Below, piece after piece: positions 49,061-58,664 of a stretch of DNA of 64,000 nucleotides; position 1 is the stretch's first letter; the number at the start of each line of letters is the position of its first letter. Source of the stretch: Vicinamibacterales bacterium (GTDB lineage: Bacteria > Acidobacteriota > Vicinamibacteria > Vicinamibacterales > Fen-181). The position numbers and the translations under genes were made by a program. A model generated the notes under the pieces. It saw only the letters and a program-made list of their open reading frames with translations, was not told the origin of the DNA and searched no databases. Location: positions 1 through 64,000 of the forward strand of contig DASXVO010000005.1 in assembly GCA_036504215.1 (NCBI GenBank), in the 5' to 3' direction.

Positions 49061-49083
49061 TTCTCCTGTGAGCCGTCGCCGTG

Positions 49084-50445
49084 ATGTTTCATAACCGAAC
49101 CCGCGTACTGATTGCCGACGATCAGCCCGACGTCCTCGAGGCACTTCGGCTCCTGTTGAAGGCCGAGGGCTGCGATCTCGACGCGGTCACGTCGCCGCCA
49201 GCCATCCTGCGGGCGCTCGAGGACCGTGAGTTCGACGTCGTCCTGATGGACCTGAACTACACGCGCGACACGACGTCGGGCCGCGAGGGGCTGGACCTCA
49301 TTCCCCGCATCCAGGCCATCGACGCCACGCTGCCGGTCGTGGTCATGACGGCGTGGGGATCGGTCGACATCGCGGTCGAAGCCATGCGGCGGGGTGCCCG
49401 GGATTTCGTCCAGAAGCCGTGGGACAACGAGCGCCTGCTGACGATCCTCCGCACGCAGGCCGAATTGGCCCGCGCGCTCAGACGCGGGCAGCGTCTCGAA
49501 GCCGAGAACAGCGCGCTGCGCGAGCAGGCCCCGACCAACCTGATTGCCCAGGCGCCCGCGATGCAGCCCGTGCTGCAGATGATCTCGCGCGTCGGCCCCG
49601 CGGACGCGAACATCCTCATCACCGGCGAGAATGGCACCGGCAAGGGCGTTGTGGCCAGCGCGCTGCACGCCGCCTCGTCGCGGTCCACGCGGCCGATGGT
49701 CACCGTCAATGCCGGCGGCCTCTCGGAGGGCGTGTTCGAGAGCGAGTTGTTCGGTCACGTGAAGGGCGCGTTCACCGACGCCAAGACCGACCGTGTCGGC
49801 CGTTTCGAACTGGCCGACGGCGGGACGCTCTTCCTCGACGAGATCGCCAATGTGGGCCTCGCCCAGCAGGTGAAGCTGCTGCGCGTCCTCGAAACCGGCG
49901 AATTCGAGCGCGTCGGATCGTCACGCACGCACAAGGTCAGCGTGCGCGTGATCTCGGCCACCAACTCGGACCTGTTCGCGGAGGTCGCCACAGGGCGGTT
50001 CCGCCAGGACCTGTTGTTCCGCCTCAACACCGTCGAGATTCGGCTGCCGCCGCTGCGCGAACGCCGCGAGGACATCCCACTTCTCGCGGTGCACTTCCTT
50101 CGCCTCCACGCCCAGCATTATCGGAAGCGCCTGTCCGGGTTCGAGCAATCCGCGCTGCAGGCGCTCGTCGAGCACAACTGGCCCGGCAACGTACGCGAAC
50201 TCGACCACGCGGTCGAACGCGCCGTGCTCATGACGCAGGGGCCGACCTTGCGCTACGGTGACCTGAGCCTCACGCCCTCGCGCGACGGCGCATCGCGCCT
50301 CGAGGACATGAGCCTCGAAGACGTCGAATCCTTCCTCGTCAAGAAGGCGATGGCGCGCTACGATGGGAACGTGAGCCATGCAGCCCGCGCGCTCGGCCTG
50401 AGCCGTAGCGCGCTCTACCGCCGACTGCAGCGCTACGGCCTATGA
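49084..50445 (+). CDS. NtrC-family sigma-54 activator, GAFTDA variant
   Basis: 453 aa: receiver (VLIADDQPDVLEALRLL, phospho-Asp in VVLMDLNYTRD, VVMTAWGS, VQKPW), AAA+ domain (GENGTGKGVVA Walker A, LFLDEIANV Walker B, WPGNVRELDHAVERAVLM) and Fis-type helix-turn-helix (YDGNVSHAARALGLSRSALYRRLQRYGL). The sigma-54-contacting loop reads GAFTDA instead of GAFTGA. The GTG at 49081 in front is an alternative start. It is coupled to the kinase that follows and probably autoregulates the operon. Confidence 0.92.
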   Translation: MFHNRTRVLIADDQPDVLEALRLLLKAEGCDLDAVTSPPAILRALEDREFDVVLMDLNYTRDTTSGREGLDLIPRIQAIDATLPVVVMTAWGSVDIAVEAMRRGARDFVQKPWDNERLLTILRTQAELARALRRGQRLEAENSALREQAPTNLIAQAPAMQPVLQMISRVGPADANILITGENGTGKGVVASALHAASSRSTRPMVTVNAGGLSEGVFESELFGHVKGAFTDAKTDRVGRFELADGGTLFLDEIANVGLAQQVKLLRVLETGEFERVGSSRTHKVSVRVISATNSDLFAEVATGRFRQDLLFRLNTVEIRLPPLRERREDIPLLAVHFLRLHAQHYRKRLSGFEQSALQALVEHNWPGNVRELDHAVERAVLMTQGPTLRYGDLSLTPSRDGASRLEDMSLEDVESFLVKKAMARYDGNVSHAARALGLSRSALYRRLQRYGL

Positions 50446-51848
50446 CGCGGTCGAGGCGCGGTCGCCGATGGCTGGGCCATGAGCGACGCGTCCTGCTCAT
50501 GGCGCTCCTCGCCGGCCTCCCGGCCGTCGTCGTCGCGCTCTGGCTGCTCTGGACCGGCAACTTCGCGCCCAAGATCTCCTGGACCCTCACCGTCTTGATC
50601 CTCTCGTGCTGGTGCGGCGTTGCCGTCGCCCTGCGCACGCGCGTCGTCTACCCGCTCCAGACCCTCTCCAATCTCCTCGCCGGGCTCCGCGAAGGCGATG
50701 CGTCGGTGCGCGCACGCGGCGCGGCCCAGGATGATGCCCTCGGCGAGGTGATGCTGGAGGCGAACGTCCTTGCCGACACGCTCCGCCAGCAGCGCCTCGG
50801 CGCGCTCGAGGCGACCGCCCTGCTCCGCAAGGTCATGGAGGAGATCGACGTCGCCGTGTTCACCTTCGATGGCGCCCATCGCCTGCGCCTGATCAACCGC
50901 GCCGGAGAGCGGCTGCTCGGGCGTGCGGCCGAGCGCCTGCTCGGATGCAACGCGGAAGAACTCGGCCTGGCGTCCGGCCTCGACGAGCACACGCCTCGTG
51001 TCGCCGACATGGCCTTTCCCGGCGGCGTCGGCCGCTGGGAGGTCCGGCGCACCAGCTTCCGGCAGGGCGGCCTCCCCCACCAGCTCCTCGTGCTGACCGA
51101 TGTGAGCCGTCCGTTGCGCGAGGAAGAGCGCCAGGCGTGGCAGCGACTGATGCGCGTTCTTGGCCACGAGATCAACAACTCGCTGGCGCCCATCAAGTCG
51201 ATTGCGGGCAGCCTCGCGCGCCTGCTCCAGCGCCAGGAACTCCCGGCCGACTGGCGTGACGACGCGGGACGAGGCTTGGGGGTGATCGCACAGCGATCGG
51301 AGGCCCTCACACGGTTCACCGCGTCCTACGCGCGGCTCGCCCGACTCCCCCAGCCTCGCCTGGCTCCGCTCGACATCGGAGACCTCGCCAGGCGTGTCGT
51401 CGGCCTCGAGACCCGGATGGCCGTTTCGCTCGAACAGGGGCCTGCGCTCCAGGTGCCTGGCGACAGTGATCAGCTCGAGCAGTTGCTGATCAACGTGCTG
51501 AAGAACGCCGTGGACGCGGCCCTCGAGACGGATGGCGGCGTGAACGTGAGCTGGGCGACCTCCGGCGGCTTCCTGGAGCTGCGCGTGGACGACGAGGGAC
51601 ACGGGCTGGCGCAGACGGCCAACCTGTTCGTGCCGTTCTTCACGACAAAGCCCGGTGGGTCCGGCATCGGTCTGGTACTCAGTCGCCAGATCGCCGAGGG
51701 CCACAACGGAACCCTCACCCTGGAGAACCGAACCGACCGGAGCGGCTGCCGAGCGACGCTCCGGCTGCCGCTCCTCAATCCCCGCTCGTCAGTCGTCGCC
51801 GACAATCCCGCCCACATCGCCTGGCCCGATCCCGAAGCACGCCGCTAG
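50442..51848 (+). CDS. sensor histidine kinase, NtrY-like
   Basis: 468 aa. It has two N-terminal TM helices (LLMALLAGLPAVVVALWLLW; WTLTVLILSCWCGVAVAL) with a very short outside loop, then HAMP, PAS (about residues 135-225) and a kinase core with H-box LMRVLGHEINNSLAPIKSIAGSLARLL, N-box NVLKNAVDAA and G-box GSGIGLVLSRQIAEGHNGTLTLENR. It overlaps the regulator stop (ATGA), which makes a cognate pair. With almost no periplasmic loop, it may sense the membrane or an interior signal. Confidence 0.92.
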   Translation: MTRSRRGRRWLGHERRVLLMALLAGLPAVVVALWLLWTGNFAPKISWTLTVLILSCWCGVAVALRTRVVYPLQTLSNLLAGLREGDASVRARGAAQDDALGEVMLEANVLADTLRQQRLGALEATALLRKVMEEIDVAVFTFDGAHRLRLINRAGERLLGRAAERLLGCNAEELGLASGLDEHTPRVADMAFPGGVGRWEVRRTSFRQGGLPHQLLVLTDVSRPLREEERQAWQRLMRVLGHEINNSLAPIKSIAGSLARLLQRQELPADWRDDAGRGLGVIAQRSEALTRFTASYARLARLPQPRLAPLDIGDLARRVVGLETRMAVSLEQGPALQVPGDSDQLEQLLINVLKNAVDAALETDGGVNVSWATSGGFLELRVDDEGHGLAQTANLFVPFFTTKPGGSGIGLVLSRQIAEGHNGTLTLENRTDRSGCRATLRLPLLNPRSSVVADNPAHIAWPDPEARR

Positions 51849-52278: not shown

Positions 52279-53397
52279 ATGAGCGATCGCGAGAGCTGGT
52301 TCACCGATGAACTCGAGCGGCGAGGGGTGTCCCGCCGCGACTTCCTGGGATTCTGCACGGTGATGGCGTCGGCACTCGCGCTGCCCGCATCACTGTCTGC
52401 CGCGATCGCCAAGGCGATCCAGCAGACGGACAAGCCGGTCTTGGTGTGGCTCGAATTTCAGGACTGCTGCGGCAACACCGAGTCGTTCCTGCGTGCGGCC
52501 CGACCCACCGTGGCCGACATCATTCTCGACACGCTGTCGGTGGACTACCACGAGACCATCATGGCGGCCGCGGGTGTACAGGCGCATGAAACCCTGAAGA
52601 AGGTCGTCGGCGACAAGCGAGGCCAGTACCTCGCGGTCGTCGAGGGTTCGATTCCGACCGGTGACGGCGGCGCCTATTGCACCATCGGCGGCCGTTCGGC
52701 GCTCGAGATCGCCCGGGAGGTCTGTGGCAACGCGGCAGCGACGATCGCGATGGGCACGTGCGCGGCCTACGGGGGCCTGCCGGCCGCGGCGCCGAACCCC
52801 ACGGGCGCCGTTGGGGTGGCTGACGCCGTGCCGGGGATCAAGAACCTGGTGAATTTCCCTGCGTGCCCCGCGAACGCCGAGAACATCACGGCTTTGCTCG
52901 TGCACTACCTGACGTTCAAGAACTGGCCTCCGCTCGACGAGTACCAGCGGCCGCTCTTCGCCTACGGCAAGCTCATTCACGACAACTGCGAGCGCCGCGC
53001 CCACTACGACGCCGGGCAGTACGTCGAGGCGTGGGGCGACGAAGGCCACCGAACGGGCTACTGCCTGTACAAGATGGGCTGCAAGGGCCCGGTCACGTCC
53101 CAGAATTGTCCGCGCGTGCGCTGGAACGAGGGGACGAACTGGCCGATCGGCTGCGGTCATCCGTGCGTCGGCTGCGCCGAGCCGGATTTCTGGGACAAGA
53201 TGACGCCTTTTTACCAGCACCTGCAGGGGCCGCCGATTCTCGGCCCCGGCTACACCGTTGACCGCGTCGGCGTCGCCGCGTCGGTCGGCATCGCGGCCGC
53301 CTTCGCCACACACGGCGTGATCTCCTATGTGAAGAGGTCCAGGCAGCTACCGCAGGAAGAGCCCAAACCCGAGGCGAAGAAGGGAGACACGGTATGA
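52279..53397 (+). CDS. [NiFe]-hydrogenase small subunit, Tat-exported, unusual proximal motif
   Basis: 372 aa. A Tat signal (VSRRDFLGFCTVMASALALPASL, residues 17-39) precedes the small-subunit fold: GSIPTGDGGAYC, GTCAAYGG, NFPACPANAEN, IHDNCERRAHYDAGQ, YCLYKMGCKGP, and NWPIGCGHPCVGCAEP. These supply ligands for the three Fe-S clusters. Where related enzymes have CTGC near the N-terminus, this one has DCCGNTESFLR, so one proximal ligand is changed. A C-terminal TM anchor (VGVAASVGIAAAFATHGVISYV) points to membrane binding. GAGG lies upstream of ATG 52279. Confidence 0.95.
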   Translation: MSDRESWFTDELERRGVSRRDFLGFCTVMASALALPASLSAAIAKAIQQTDKPVLVWLEFQDCCGNTESFLRAARPTVADIILDTLSVDYHETIMAAAGVQAHETLKKVVGDKRGQYLAVVEGSIPTGDGGAYCTIGGRSALEIAREVCGNAAATIAMGTCAAYGGLPAAAPNPTGAVGVADAVPGIKNLVNFPACPANAENITALLVHYLTFKNWPPLDEYQRPLFAYGKLIHDNCERRAHYDAGQYVEAWGDEGHRTGYCLYKMGCKGPVTSQNCPRVRWNEGTNWPIGCGHPCVGCAEPDFWDKMTPFYQHLQGPPILGPGYTVDRVGVAASVGIAAAFATHGVISYVKRSRQLPQEEPKPEAKKGDTV

Positions 53398-55100
53398 CGC
53401 ACATCGTCGTTGATCCCGTCACTCGGATCGAGGGGCACCTGCGGATCGAGGCCGAGGTCGATGGGGGCAAGGTGCGTGACGCCTGGTCGTCTTCCACGAT
53501 GTTTCGCGGCATCGAGCTGATCCTGAAGGGCCGCGACCCGCGCGATGCGTGGGTGTTCACGCAGCGGATTTGCGGTGTGTGCACCACCGTGCACGCCATC
53601 GCCTCCATTCGGGCCGTCGAGAACGCGATCGGCGCGGCACCGCCACCCAACGCACGGCTGCTGCGCAACCTGATCATCGCGATGCAGTGCGTCCAGGACC
53701 ACGTCGTCCACTTCTACCATCTCCACGCGCTCGACTGGGTGGACATCGTTTCCGCGCTGAGCGCAGACCCGACCAAGACCTCATCGCTGGCCGAGTCGAT
53801 TTCGGACTGGCCGCTCTCGAGCACGAAGTATTTCGCCGGCGTTCGCGACCGGATCAAGGGCTTCGTCGACCGTGGACAGCTCGGTCCGTTTGCCAACGCC
53901 TACTGGGGACATAGCGCATACAAGCTGCCGCCGGAGGCGAACCTGCTCGCCGTGGCGCACTACCTCGAAGCGCTCGAGTGGCAGCGAGAGGTCATCAAGG
54001 TCCACGCGATCCTCGGTGGAAAGAACCCTCACCTCCAGAGCTTCCTGGTCGGCGGCATGGCGACGCCGGTCGATCCCGACAAGCAGGCCTCGCTCAATGC
54101 CGACACGCTCGCTCAGGTGCGCTCGCTGATCAACAAGGCGCACGACTTCGTGGCCCGCGTGTACATTCCTGACGTTCTGGCTGTCGCTTCGTTCTACAAG
54201 GACTGGGCAGGCTACGGCGCGGGACCCGGCCACTTCCTCGTCTACGGCGAGTACCCCGAAGACGACGGGCAGCGCCCTGCCCTCTTCCTCCCATCCGGCG
54301 TCATTCGCAACAAGGATCTGAGCAAGGTCGAACGCCTCGACGCGGCCCTGATCACCGAGCAGGTCACGCACTCGTGGTACGAGTACGCCGGTGGCGACCA
54401 GGTGGGCCTGCACCCGTTCGCCGGCGAAACGAAACCCAGTTACACGGGACCCAAGCCTCCGTTCGAGCGGCTCGATACAGCGGCGAAATACAGCTGGCTC
54501 AAGTCGCCACGCTACGACGGCCTTCCGATGGAAGTCGGGCCGCTCTCGCGCATGCTGGTGGCCTATGCGTCCGGCCACGCACGGGTGAAGGAGGTGGTCG
54601 GCGGCGTCCTCCAGAAGCTCGGGGTCGGGCCCGAGGCCCTCTTCTCCACGCTCGGTCGCGTGGCGGCGCGCGCCATCGAGACCCTCATCCTCGCCGAGAA
54701 GCAGGTCGAGTGGCTCGACCAACTCGCCGGCAACATGGCGCGGCACGACTTGCGGACGCACGACAACTCGAAGTGGGACCCGAACAGCTGGCCCGCCGAG
54801 GCATCGGGTGTCGGCCTCCACGAGGCGCCGCGCGGCGCCCTGGGTCATTGGGTCCACATCCGCAACGGCTCGATTGCCAACTACCAGTGCATCGTCCCCA
54901 GCACGTGGAACGCCGGCCCGCGTGACGCCGCTGGCCACCGCGGGCCGTACGAGGAGGCGCTTCTCGGAACGCCCGTCGCGGATCCGGCGAAGCCGATCGA
55001 AATCCTGCGGACCATTCACTCCTTCGATCCATGTCTGGCGTGCGGCGTCCACGTCCTGGACGGCCGCCGGCGCGAAATCGCGCGAGTGAGGCTGTCATGA
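53394..55100 (+). CDS. [NiFe]-hydrogenase large subunit
   Basis: 568 aa. It binds the NiFe(CN)2CO site through RICGVC (residues about 58-63) and DPCLACGVH near the C-terminus. The residues after the last His (VLDGRRREIARVRLS) are the extension removed by the protease encoded at 55818. It begins VVDPVTRIEGHLRIE, typical of group 1 uptake enzymes. It overlaps the small subunit by 4 nt (ATGA). H2 oxidation in or at the periplasm with electrons to cytochrome b is the likely role. Confidence 0.96.
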   Translation: MTHIVVDPVTRIEGHLRIEAEVDGGKVRDAWSSSTMFRGIELILKGRDPRDAWVFTQRICGVCTTVHAIASIRAVENAIGAAPPPNARLLRNLIIAMQCVQDHVVHFYHLHALDWVDIVSALSADPTKTSSLAESISDWPLSSTKYFAGVRDRIKGFVDRGQLGPFANAYWGHSAYKLPPEANLLAVAHYLEALEWQREVIKVHAILGGKNPHLQSFLVGGMATPVDPDKQASLNADTLAQVRSLINKAHDFVARVYIPDVLAVASFYKDWAGYGAGPGHFLVYGEYPEDDGQRPALFLPSGVIRNKDLSKVERLDAALITEQVTHSWYEYAGGDQVGLHPFAGETKPSYTGPKPPFERLDTAAKYSWLKSPRYDGLPMEVGPLSRMLVAYASGHARVKEVVGGVLQKLGVGPEALFSTLGRVAARAIETLILAEKQVEWLDQLAGNMARHDLRTHDNSKWDPNSWPAEASGVGLHEAPRGALGHWVHIRNGSIANYQCIVPSTWNAGPRDAAGHRGPYEEALLGTPVADPAKPIEILRTIHSFDPCLACGVHVLDGRRREIARVRLS

Positions 55101-55825
55101 TCGGCGACACCGCCCTGGCCGAAACCGTGCGCGTGTACGTCTGGGAGTGGCCGGTACGTGCGTGCCACTGGCTGATCGCCGGGTCCATCGCGGTCCTGTC
55201 GGGCACCGGGCTCTACATCGCGAATCCCTCGCTCATGACGACCGGCGTCGTCACGCAACGGTCGCTGATGGGCCTCGTGAAGTTGATCCACTACTCGACC
55301 GCGATCGTCTTCGGCATCGCGGTCTTCAGCCGCGTCTGGTGGATGTTCGTCGGAAACAACTACGCGCGATGGGACAAGTTCGTCCCCGCGCGCACCAAGC
55401 GCTGGAAGGCGATCTGGCCGACGCTGAGCTACTACCTGTTTCGGATGCGGAAACCCCCGGGCTTCGTCGGACACAACCCGCTGGCGGGGCTGACCTACAC
55501 ACTGGTGTTCGTCATCTACCTCATCATGATCGGCACCGGGCTGGCGATGTACTCGGTCAGCGCGCACGTCGGCTCGCCACTGCGGCTGTTCACGTTCCTC
55601 GTGCCCGTGTTCGGCGGTCTCGCGATGGCGCGCTGGCTGCATCACGGGTTCATGTGGATGCTCATCGGCTTCGCGCTGCACCACGTCTACAGCGCCGTGC
55701 TGATGTCGCAGGTCGAAGCGAATGCCACGGTCGAATCGATCTTCTCCGGCTACAAGTTCGTTCCGCGAGAAGACCTGGTGTACTCCGGCTACCGGTTCAT
55801 CGACCGCAAGGACCAGCATGGATAG
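55097..55825 (+). CDS. hydrogenase cytochrome b subunit (HyaC type)
   Basis: 242 aa with four TM helices (WLIAGSIAVLSGTGLYI, IVFGIAVFSRVWWMFVG, LTYTLVFVIYLIMIGTGLAMYSV, FMWMLIGFALHHVYSAVL). Haem-ligand histidines stand in ACHWLIAG, KLIHYST, WLHHGFMW and ALHHVYS. It passes electrons from the Fe-S small subunit to quinone. The start overlaps the large subunit stop (ATGA). Confidence 0.93.
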   Translation: MIGDTALAETVRVYVWEWPVRACHWLIAGSIAVLSGTGLYIANPSLMTTGVVTQRSLMGLVKLIHYSTAIVFGIAVFSRVWWMFVGNNYARWDKFVPARTKRWKAIWPTLSYYLFRMRKPPGFVGHNPLAGLTYTLVFVIYLIMIGTGLAMYSVSAHVGSPLRLFTFLVPVFGGLAMARWLHHGFMWMLIGFALHHVYSAVLMSQVEANATVESIFSGYKFVPREDLVYSGYRFIDRKDQHG

Positions 55826-56363
55826 CCGTTCGTCGCTGCTCATTCTCGGCCTCGGCAATCTCCTCTGCACCGACGACGGCGCGGGCGCCTTCGTGGTGCA
55901 GGAGATTGCCGAAACGAGGGTGGCGCCGGACGGCGTGCGGATTCTCGACGGAGGCACGCTCGGACTGGCCCTTCTGCCCTATCTCGAGGATGCAGAGCGC
56001 GCGATCCTGGTTGACGCGGTGCAGGTGGACGCGCCGCCTGGAACCGTGATCCGCCTCGAGGGTGAGGAGGTGGGACCGGCCATCGCGTCCCACCTATCGG
56101 TCCACCAGGTGGGCGTCGCCGATCTGCTCGACGCCGCGCGGTGGCGGGAGCGTGTACCTCCCGAACTCACCCTGCTCGGCGTCGTGCCGCTCAGCACGGA
56201 ACTCGGCTACGGCCTCTCGGCACCAGTGGACGCGGCGTTCGACGACCTCGTCGCCCGCGTCTGCCAGGAGGCGGCTCGACTGGGTTTCCCCTTGTCGATG
56301 AAACAACCGCATGACCACGACCACGAGGGCGCTCGTCTGCGCGCTGCTGTCGGCGATCGCTGA
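55818..56363 (+). CDS. hydrogenase maturation protease (HyaD/HybD, M52)
   Basis: 181 aa. It cleaves the C-terminal tail of the large subunit after nickel insertion. The N-terminus ILGLGNLLCTDDGAGAFVVQEI is the M52 signature (GxGNxxxxDDGxG), and HLSVHQVGVADLL carries the third metal ligand. The last 20 residues are His/Asp-rich (KQPHDHDHEG), unusual, and could bind nickel. The start overlaps the cytochrome b gene by 8 nt. Confidence 0.93.
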   Translation: MDSRSSLLILGLGNLLCTDDGAGAFVVQEIAETRVAPDGVRILDGGTLGLALLPYLEDAERAILVDAVQVDAPPGTVIRLEGEEVGPAIASHLSVHQVGVADLLDAARWRERVPPELTLLGVVPLSTELGYGLSAPVDAAFDDLVARVCQEAARLGFPLSMKQPHDHDHEGARLRAAVGDR

Positions 56364-56697
56364 GACGACCTGCGGCCGGTCCGACATTGCCTCGCCGCCC
56401 GCCTCCCGGCTATCTTCACTCGCCGCGCGGGAGGCGGGTCGCCGCCTCTACCAGACCCACTGCGCCTTTTGTCATGGCGAGCGCGGCGATGGCCAGGGAG
56501 TCCGTCGGTCGTCGTTCGCTCGCGCACCCCGGGATTTCACCGACGTGGCGTGGCGCCGATCGACGTCGCCAGAACACGTGTCCCGCGCGATCCGCGACGG
56601 CGTCACAGGCACGGCGATGCCGGCGTGGGCCGCCCTGGGCGACGACGCCATCGCCAATCTGACAGCGTACGTCTGCTCGTTCGGCCGCTCCCGGTGA
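56311..56697 (+). CDS. monohaem cytochrome c
   Basis: 128 aa. A signal segment (RALVCALLSAIAETTCG) is followed by one CAFCH haem motif (residues about 51-55) and a distal Met in GTAMPAWAALGD, the class I cytochrome c pattern. It overlaps the end of the protease gene by 53 nt. The Cys near the signal end could also be a lipobox (ETTCG is a poor match). It is a likely electron carrier of the hydrogenase module. Confidence 0.88.
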   Translation: MTTTTRALVCALLSAIAETTCGRSDIASPPASRLSSLAAREAGRRLYQTHCAFCHGERGDGQGVRRSSFARAPRDFTDVAWRRSTSPEHVSRAIRDGVTGTAMPAWAALGDDAIANLTAYVCSFGRSR

Positions 56698-56869: not shown

Positions 56870-56922
56870 GGTTAGCTGAGGTTGGGTCGTCGTTTTCCCC
56901 TTCTCCGGTGGCAGTCAGCAGC

Positions 56923-57972
56923 ATGCCTTGTTCAGCGCTTTTCCCACTCGTCGTTGCCTTGATCGTCCAGACGCCGGCGGCGGTCCAGCCGAAGAACGAA
57001 GACATCGAAACGTGTCTGGCATGTCACGCCGACAAGTCGATGTCGGTCATGCTGCCGAGTGGTGAGTCCCGAGGCCTGTTTGTCGACAAAGGCGGTTTCA
57101 CCCGCTCGGTGCACGGTGGAAAGCTCGGCTGCACGGACTGCCACACCGACGTGACCGAGATCCCGCACGCGTCGAAGCCGTTCAAGTCAAAGCGCGAGTT
57201 CACCATCGCGTACTACGAGGCGTGCAAGCGGTGCCATTTCGCCAACTACAGCAAGACACTCGACAGTGTCCACTACGCGGCCATCGCGCGCGGTGACCGC
57301 ACGGCACCGACGTGCGTGGATTGCCACGGCGCCCACGACATCACGCCGCCCAATCAGCCGCGCTCGCGGATCTCCCAGACGTGCGCCACGTGTCATCGGG
57401 GCGTCTCGACCGTCTACGCGCGCAGCGTGCATGGCCGGGCGCTGATCGAGGAGAAGAACATCGACGTCCCTGCCTGCACGGACTGCCACCACTCGCACGA
57501 CATCGCGGGCCCGCACGCGCCCGGTTGGCGGCTCAAGAGCCCGGAACTCTGCGCCAGCTGCCACGCCAGCCAGAGCATGATGAAGAAGTACGGCCTGTCC
57601 ACGGCGGTGATGCAGACCTATCTGGCCGACTTCCACGGCATGACGGCGTCGCTCCAAAAGCAGGATGGGACGACGGGACCACGCGTCACGGCGCTGTGCA
57701 TCGACTGCCACGGCGTGCACGACATCGCGAAGACCAAAGGACCGGGCTCGGCGCAGATGCAGAAGAACCTGGTGGCCACCTGTCAGAAGTGCCACCCGGG
57801 CGCGACCAAGAGTTTCTCGGCCGCGTGGATGTCACACTACGAGCCGACGCTGCAGAAGGCTCCGCTCGTCTACGGCGTCAAGCTCATGTACTACGTCTTG
57901 ATCCCATTCATGATCGGAGGATTGGTGCTCCAGATCCTCCTCCACCTCTGGCGCGTCGTGGTCAACCGATGA
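56923..57972 (+). CDS. nine-haem cytochrome c with C-terminal membrane anchor
   Basis: 349 aa. A signal peptide (PCSALFPLVVALIVQTPAAVQ) is followed by nine CxxCH motifs: CLACH, CTDCH, CKRCH, CVDCH, CATCH, CTDCH, CASCH, CIDCH and CQKCH. A C-terminal TM helix (VLIPFMIGGLVLQILLHLW) anchors it. It looks like an NrfB/octahaem-type electron relay between the membrane and a partner. I prefer ATG 56923; GTG 56908 in frame is possible. The gene is coupled to the next cytochrome b. Confidence 0.93.
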   Translation: MPCSALFPLVVALIVQTPAAVQPKNEDIETCLACHADKSMSVMLPSGESRGLFVDKGGFTRSVHGGKLGCTDCHTDVTEIPHASKPFKSKREFTIAYYEACKRCHFANYSKTLDSVHYAAIARGDRTAPTCVDCHGAHDITPPNQPRSRISQTCATCHRGVSTVYARSVHGRALIEEKNIDVPACTDCHHSHDIAGPHAPGWRLKSPELCASCHASQSMMKKYGLSTAVMQTYLADFHGMTASLQKQDGTTGPRVTALCIDCHGVHDIAKTKGPGSAQMQKNLVATCQKCHPGATKSFSAAWMSHYEPTLQKAPLVYGVKLMYYVLIPFMIGGLVLQILLHLWRVVVNR

Positions 57973-58664
57973 AGGGCTACATCGTCCGTTTCTCGCGGCG
58001 GCAGCGCATCGAGCACTTCTCGGTGATGACGGTGTTCATCATCCTGTCGCTGACGGGTCTGCCGCAGAAGTTCTTCGAGGCCTCGTGGGCCCAGGCGCTC
58101 ATCGTCGGCCTCGGCGGCATTGACCGCGTGCGGTGGATCCACCGAGCAGCAGGCGTCGCGTTCGCGCTGCTGACCGGCATCCATTTGACAACGGCGGTGG
58201 GGCTCGTGCTCCTGGGGCGCTCGTCGTTGTCGATCGTGCCGACACGCCAGGACTTCACCGACGCCATCGACCAGATCCGCTACTACCTGGGAGGCTCCGA
58301 GGAGCCGGCCAGGTTCGACAAGTTCGACTACAAGCAGAAGTTCGAGTACTGGGGCCTCGTCCTGGGTGCCGTCATCGTCATCAGCACCGGGCTCGTACTG
58401 CTCTTCCCGATCCTGACCGCGCAGTTCCTTCCCGGCGAGGTCATTCCAGCGGCGAAACTGGCGCACGGGAACGAGGGGTTGATGGCCTTTCTCGTGGTCA
58501 TCGTCTGGCACATCTACAACGCGCACCTCAATCCCGACGTTTTCCCGTTCGACACGACCATCTTCACCGGGAAGATCAGCCTGGACCGGCTGCACCACGA
58601 GCATGGTCGGGAATATGAGAGACTGAAGGACGAACAGTCGCCTTCCGATCCTGCGTCGATCTGA
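57969..58664 (+). CDS. cytochrome b membrane subunit (FdnI/NapC-partner type)
   Basis: 231 aa. Four TM helices (IEHFSVMTVFIILSLTGLPQKF, IHRAAGVAFALLTGIHLTTAVGLVLL, FEYWGLVLGAVIVISTGLVLLFPI, GLMAFLVVIVWHIYNAHL) with paired histidines (IEHFSV, IHRAAG, GIHLTT, AHGNEG, VWHIYNAHL). It resembles the membrane cytochrome b of formate dehydrogenase and hydrogenase. Its ATG overlaps the stop of the multihaem gene (ATGA), so the two form a quinone-linked pair. Confidence 0.9.
   Translation: MKGYIVRFSRRQRIEHFSVMTVFIILSLTGLPQKFFEASWAQALIVGLGGIDRVRWIHRAAGVAFALLTGIHLTTAVGLVLLGRSSLSIVPTRQDFTDAIDQIRYYLGGSEEPARFDKFDYKQKFEYWGLVLGAVIVISTGLVLLFPILTAQFLPGEVIPAAKLAHGNEGLMAFLVVIVWHIYNAHLNPDVFPFDTTIFTGKISLDRLHHEHGREYERLKDEQSPSDPASI

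Follow-up and report, generated by a model that had tools for sequence, protein, structure and literature searches.

Group 1f [NiFe]-hydrogenases of Roseiflexus, Geobacter and Frankia have been described as carrying Asn or Asp in place of one proximal-cluster Cys, and Asn has been described at this position in group 2a (PMC5364354). Table 1 of a further paper records a Cys-to-Asp replacement for G. metallireducens and, for the group 2a enzyme HupS of Nostoc, a Cys-to-Asn replacement at the column studied here; the same source reports that the A. macleodii hydrogenase was active with Asn or Asp for this Cys, in a background that had two further Cys substitutions (PMC4070099). In Huc, the group 2a enzyme of Mycobacterium smegmatis, three [3Fe-4S] clusters were assigned from cryo-EM density, the fourth coordinating residues and EPR (PMC10017518), and a review credits Nostoc HupS with two [4Fe-4S] clusters and one [3Fe-4S] cluster (PMC4463661). 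For group 1h, an Asp is cited as the fourth proximal ligand (PMC5364354). Group 1f itself has been described as polyphyletic and poorly studied (PMC6896113) and has been reported in Acidobacteria (PMC5900883), and we found no paper in the open-licence literature that characterises the cluster of any 1f enzyme.

The locus considered here lies in a 64,000-nucleotide stretch of a Vicinamibacterales genome (the window), which encodes a hyaS-like [NiFe]-hydrogenase small subunit of 372 residues on the forward strand at 52279..53397, residue n beginning at 52279+3(n-1). The protein carries a Tat signal (RRGVSRRDFLGFC; TIGR01409) and a C-terminal hydrophobic anchor, and it matches the Pfam profiles PF14720 (118.8 bits) and PF01058 (88.4 bits) as well as TIGR00391 of NCBIfam (415.9 bits, cut-off 179.5). 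Its proximal site reads DCCGNTES (wider reading, VWLEFQDCCGNTESFLRA). Alignment to solved small subunits puts Cys63 at proximal ligand 1 and Asn66 at the place of ligand 2, with Cys64 as an extra residue, whereas the corresponding residues are ECTGC in Desulfovibrio and ECTGC or CTCC in Hyd-1 and HoxK. The first-pass annotation of this DNA had read the site as CCGN, with Asn for the second ligand and an extra Cys after the first, and this is exactly what the codons tgc tgc ggc aac at 52465..52476 (forward strand) and the alignment give for C63-C64-G65-N66. The three standard proximal Cys that it counted as left are likewise in place: Cys63, Cys161 (in GTC; 52759..52761, forward strand), which is invariant across the 111 rows compared (48+39+24), and Cys196 (in PAC; 52864..52866, forward strand), which is preceded by Ala195 (52861-52863) in place of Gly. 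The medial ligands Cys277, Cys296 and Cys299, with Pro289, and the distal ligands His234, Cys237, Cys262 and Cys268 appear normal in the alignment, their roles being assigned from known families. A structure predicted for the small subunit alone has a mean pLDDT of 62, with residues 230-331 below 50, which is too low for ligand geometry, and in this low-confidence model the anchor would be a helix at 326-355.

Downstream, all on the forward strand, follow the large subunit (53394..55100; PF00374, 783 bits), whose active-site residues C60, C63, C547 and C550 are intact, a hydrogenase b-type cytochrome (55097..55825; TIGR02125, 149 bits, cut-off 121.5), a HyaD/HybD-like hydrogenase maturation protease (55818..56363; PF01750, 88.7 bits; TIGR00072, 134.7 bits) and a small c-type cytochrome (56311..56697; PF13442, 53 bits), the start of which overlaps the protease gene. 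Among the loci of the window's sub-clade (defined below) that have room downstream, the large subunit comes next in 38/38 and the cytochrome b gene is present in 37/38; the small cytochrome c gene occurs in 27 of the 36 sub-clade loci with room, against 0/18 Asp-type and 1/15 other Asn-type loci. Directly upstream of the operon, at 49081-51848, an NtrC-type sigma-54 activator is encoded together with a histidine kinase, and a sigma-54 regulator likewise stands beside the hydrogenase genes of C. necator pHG1. Past the operon, at 56908-58664, lie the genes for a multihaem cytochrome c, in which nine CxxCH were counted by eye, and for another cytochrome b, an arrangement found only in loci L009 and L010 (2/34 and 2/33 sub-clade loci with room). 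The genome, which is rated 100% complete, yielded one PF14720 small subunit and one full hydrogenase large subunit together with weaker PF00374 matches that are probably complex I-like proteins; HypD is encoded at another place, and there is one haem-copper oxidase.

We assigned the enzyme to a group from the tree, the motif and published descriptions, with Geobacteraceae rows standing in for named 1f references. Two CxxC NiFe motifs in the large subunit and the Tat signal in the small subunit mark a membrane-bound uptake enzyme of group 1. Within that group, the small subunit clusters with Geobacter and Chloroflexota types and not with 1d or CTGC types, and it has Asn at the second proximal position, where Geobacter Hya and the Roseiflexus and Frankia enzymes of group 1f also have Asn or Asp. 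Geobacteraceae, Nitrospirota and Chloroflexota rows form one clade with the window and share its small-large-cytochrome b-protease gene order; what sets the window's sub-clade apart from other 1f enzymes is Cys292, Ala195 and, usually, the small cytochrome c gene. The O2-tolerant MBH of group 1d (HoxK, E. coli Hyd-1) resemble the window's enzyme in fold family, anchor, cytochrome b partner and Tat export, but their six proximal Cys are not reproduced here: Gly65 and Gly166 take the places of the two extra Cys, numbered 19 and 120, and ligand 2 is Asn, not Cys. Group 1h is described as having neither a Tat signal nor a C-terminal anchor and as carrying SFDPCLPCGVH as its L2 motif (PMC5364354), whereas the window has both of these features, FDPCLACGVH and Asn66; the 1h protein HofK (PDB 5AA5) has the motif CDGD, which puts an Asp, also a non-Cys residue, in the Asn66 column. 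Huc of group 2a (CSGN, in ACSGNTMSF) has Asn in that same column, but kinship with group 2a is not borne out, Huc being matched at ~1e-33 versus 1e-75 to 1e-95 for standard [NiFe] group 1 chains, and Huc has Lys at the window's medial Pro (placed by spacing from the following Cys). On its sequence, the enzyme is thus a new member of group 1f, a Tat-exported, cytochrome-b-linked uptake hydrogenase. These comparisons also correct the background from which the motif had first been judged: the expectation of CTGC or CTCC is incomplete, as small subunits of groups 1f, 1h and 2a do not have CTGC here. The suggestion of a non-standard site after the actinobacterial-type enzyme was sound insofar as ligand 2 is not Cys and is homologous to the Asp of HofK, while the Asn of group 2a, as in Huc, is a closer precedent than the Asp of group 1h.

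How widely the replacement is shared was read from two sets of relatives. The best 80 of 339 confirmed relatives, which were hence picked by similarity, have Asn at ligand 2 in 61 loci, Asp in 19 and Cys in none, with Cys at position 64 in 8/80. Whole genomes were then sampled at thresholds of 1e-40 and then 1e-60, and a relative was found in 57/297 genomes of the window's phylum, 35/195 of the phylum of G340, 33/251 of the phylum of G318 and 120/247 of the phylum of G303. For the window's phylum, 30 of 60 matching places were read (11 Asn, 18 Cys and 1 unreadable), and for the other three phyla 90 loci, a subset of the matching places, were read. In the phylum of G303, several small-subunit matches (e.g. 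L184, L198 and L206) span one or two in-frame stops (TAG, TGA or TAA). After removal, ahead of counting, of L099 (which ends at the motif), L089 (the window itself) and six rows duplicating other proteins, the enlarged set, two references included, comprised 195 rows, with ligand 2 as Asn in 90, Cys in 65 and Asp in 40.

A quick IQ-TREE of 188 rows, built without HofK and six Cys-type Chloroflexota rows (L175-L180), places the window in a clade (SH-aLRT 93) in which 125/125 rows have Asn or Asp at ligand 2 (86/39), and the rows adjoining this clade (L160, L163 and L201) keep Cys. This distribution points to a single loss of the Cys, close to the clade's base. Across the whole tree, two switches between Cys and Asn/Asp are enough, the second giving a separate Asn clade of four rows; when Cys, Asn and Asp are treated as three states, 10 changes are needed, which implies that Asn and Asp have been swapped several times. 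A careful 62-row tree gave the same picture (bootstrap 96 and SH-aLRT 89 for the clade), and in an AU test on that tree the uniting of the two Asn clades was not rejected (p-AU 0.236), which fits a single origin of the replacement as well as convergence within group 1. The four rows of the second clade (L096, L097, L098 and L100) lie outside the main Asn/Asp clade, read CAGN at the proximal site and have neither Cys149 nor Cys292. The alteration, first taken to be particular to this small subunit, is accordingly the rule in its clade, and its standing as something other than normal does not survive either, given that Asn or Asp here is an established feature of group 1f in print (PMC5364354). 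A sequencing error, which had been named as something that would refute the observation, is ruled out in practice by the relatives: the nearest of them, L009 (86% identical), and 10 more rows combine Cys64 with Asn or Asp at ligand 2, and the second Cys is missing throughout the clade. With the motif common to independent relatives and both reading frame and operon intact, the chance that we are looking at an error or a decayed gene is negligible. The altered motif is a real and published normal signature of a membrane H2-oxidising family and no oddity of the Vicinamibacterales genome; what appears modestly new, from the alignments, is the repeated interchange of Asn and Asp inside one family.

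The reading that we favour, at a probability of about 0.7, is that the enzyme belongs to a 1f-type membrane uptake lineage in which the ligand-2 Cys was replaced by Asn or Asp once, near the base, and the replacement was kept, leaving a proximal cluster held by three Cys that is likely to be [3Fe-4S]. The enzyme would be exported by Tat and would oxidise H2 at the periplasmic face, with electrons passing from the proximal cluster by way of the medial to the distal one and on to cytochrome b, the quinone pool and an oxidase. Three Cys would hold the proximal cluster and the corner at Asn66 would have no thiolate. For that reason its potential should lie above that of a standard [4Fe-4S] cluster, whether it is [3Fe-4S] as in Huc, which is most likely, or a weakly Asn-ligated [4Fe-4S], and the higher potential would bias the enzyme towards H2 uptake. 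The Asn precedents conflict on the cluster type, HupS being mixed and Huc all [3Fe-4S], and this counts against the proposal. By analogy, we put [3Fe-4S] slightly ahead for the Asn-type members because the structure of Huc was determined directly, on the whole enzyme, and the Asp-type members would probably hold [4Fe-4S].

The same site could instead hold a proximal [4Fe-4S] cluster in which three Cys are joined by Asn66, or by Asp in the relatives, as a true O/N ligand, as in actinobacterial-type hydrogenase with its 3Cys/1Asp cluster. HofK, with Asp in the same column, and the EPR of HupS (PMC4463661) speak for such a ligand, and the Asn/Asp swaps among the 10 three-state changes would fit two O-donor ligands. 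Yet Asn and Asp are one base change apart, so that swaps would be just as likely without any ligand role for either, and Huc, which is also CxGN, has [3Fe-4S]; we consider true ligation by Asn66 a serious possibility, although the odds are against it.

The extra Cys64 raises the further question of whether a fourth thiolate has been regained. Cys64 occurs in 12 of the 125 Asn/Asp rows of the clade and in none of the 63 other rows (59 Cys-type and 4 outlying Asn-type), and its occurrences in the 188-row tree are spread over 8 unconnected tips or small clades, each of them inside the 125-row clade. That clade makes up 54% of the branch length, and the naive chance that all 8 fall inside it is 0.007, a crude and post hoc figure. 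Such a bias is what would be seen if Cys64 stood in for the Cys lost at 66 and rebuilt a four-Cys [4Fe-4S] cluster in a subset of the family. It might also be seen if the Ala found at this position tolerates replacement by Cys better than does the Thr of Cys-type enzymes, and 113/125 clade rows manage without Cys64, usually with Ala or Thr; L010, which stands beside L009 in the window's group, has Ala. We therefore regard a substitute thiolate at Cys64 as quite improbable. To judge from the alignment, Cys64 is a sporadic and optional neighbour, enriched where ligand 2 has been lost, and no required ligand.

The window's sub-clade (50 rows, including three identical pairs; SH-aLRT 100), whose record titles name Acidobacteria, Myxococcales, Gemmatimonadota and relatives, has Asn66, Ala195 and Cys292 in all 50 rows. 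Cys292 (in WPIGCGHPC; 53152..53154, forward strand) is an extra Cys in the medial-cluster loop, lying after the medial Pro and ahead of the medial Cys that comes next. It was found in 48/48 sub-clade rows and in 0/39 and 0/24 others; in the enlarged set all 50 sub-clade rows have it and the clade's 75 other Asn/Asp rows do not, L127 and L130 being the only further rows with it. Ala195 was present in 48/48 sub-clade rows where the others have Gly (39/39 and 24/24); three rows of the Chloroflexota sample (L153, L154 and L156) also carry Ala195, though with Val and not Cys at 292. The fixing of Cys292 and Ala195 beside cluster ligands in the 50-row sub-clade also seems, from these rows, to be modestly new, and no report of an additional Cys in the medial loop came up in our search of the open-licence literature. 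We also considered Cys149 (52723..52725, forward strand), which is Cys in 119/129 Asn/Asp rows versus 1/59 Cys-type rows, as a substitute cluster ligand, and judged this unlikely. The predicted structure has a helix at 141-150 and a strand at 154-158, which would put Cys149 at the helix end, ahead of the strand leading to Cys161, and thus on the far side of the sheet from the cluster. Its association with the loss of ligand 2 comes down to just 1 starred independent pair, too few for a test.

A bolder extension would have the Asn-type 1f enzymes hold a Huc-like [3Fe-4S] cluster and the Asp-type enzymes a 3Cys/1Asp [4Fe-4S] cluster, with a single-base switch, repeated several times in evolution, altering both cluster type and potential and with Cys292 remodelling the medial site in the window's sub-clade; we think this rather unlikely. 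Asn versus Asp was also considered as a marker of lifestyle, from a PF00115 survey of haem-copper oxidases that covered the source genomes behind 50 of the 80 loci (19/19 Asp-type and 31/61 Asn-type), many of them incomplete MAGs. PF00115 also picks up NO reductases. A strong COX1 match was present in 17/19 Asp-type genomes (1 with none and 1 weak) and in 24/31 Asn-type genomes (5 with none and 2 weak), and since these proportions are not clearly different, the oxidase content gives no lifestyle signal for a functional split between the two types.

Since the motif is already known, the finding is mostly explained. What the clade and its neighbours provide is a natural series of Cys, Asn and Asp at one ligand, with solved end-points outside it (Huc for Asn and HofK for Asp), and this series allows the effect of the proximal cluster on oxygen response and uptake bias to be tested in close homologues. 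The 1f enzyme of Acidobacterium ailaaui has been cited for sub-atmospheric H2 consumption (PMC6776052), a setting in which a high-potential proximal cluster would matter. If the switch between [3Fe-4S] with Asn and [4Fe-4S] with Asp is true, group 1f would have come to a Huc-like uptake of trace H2 independently, by a second route.
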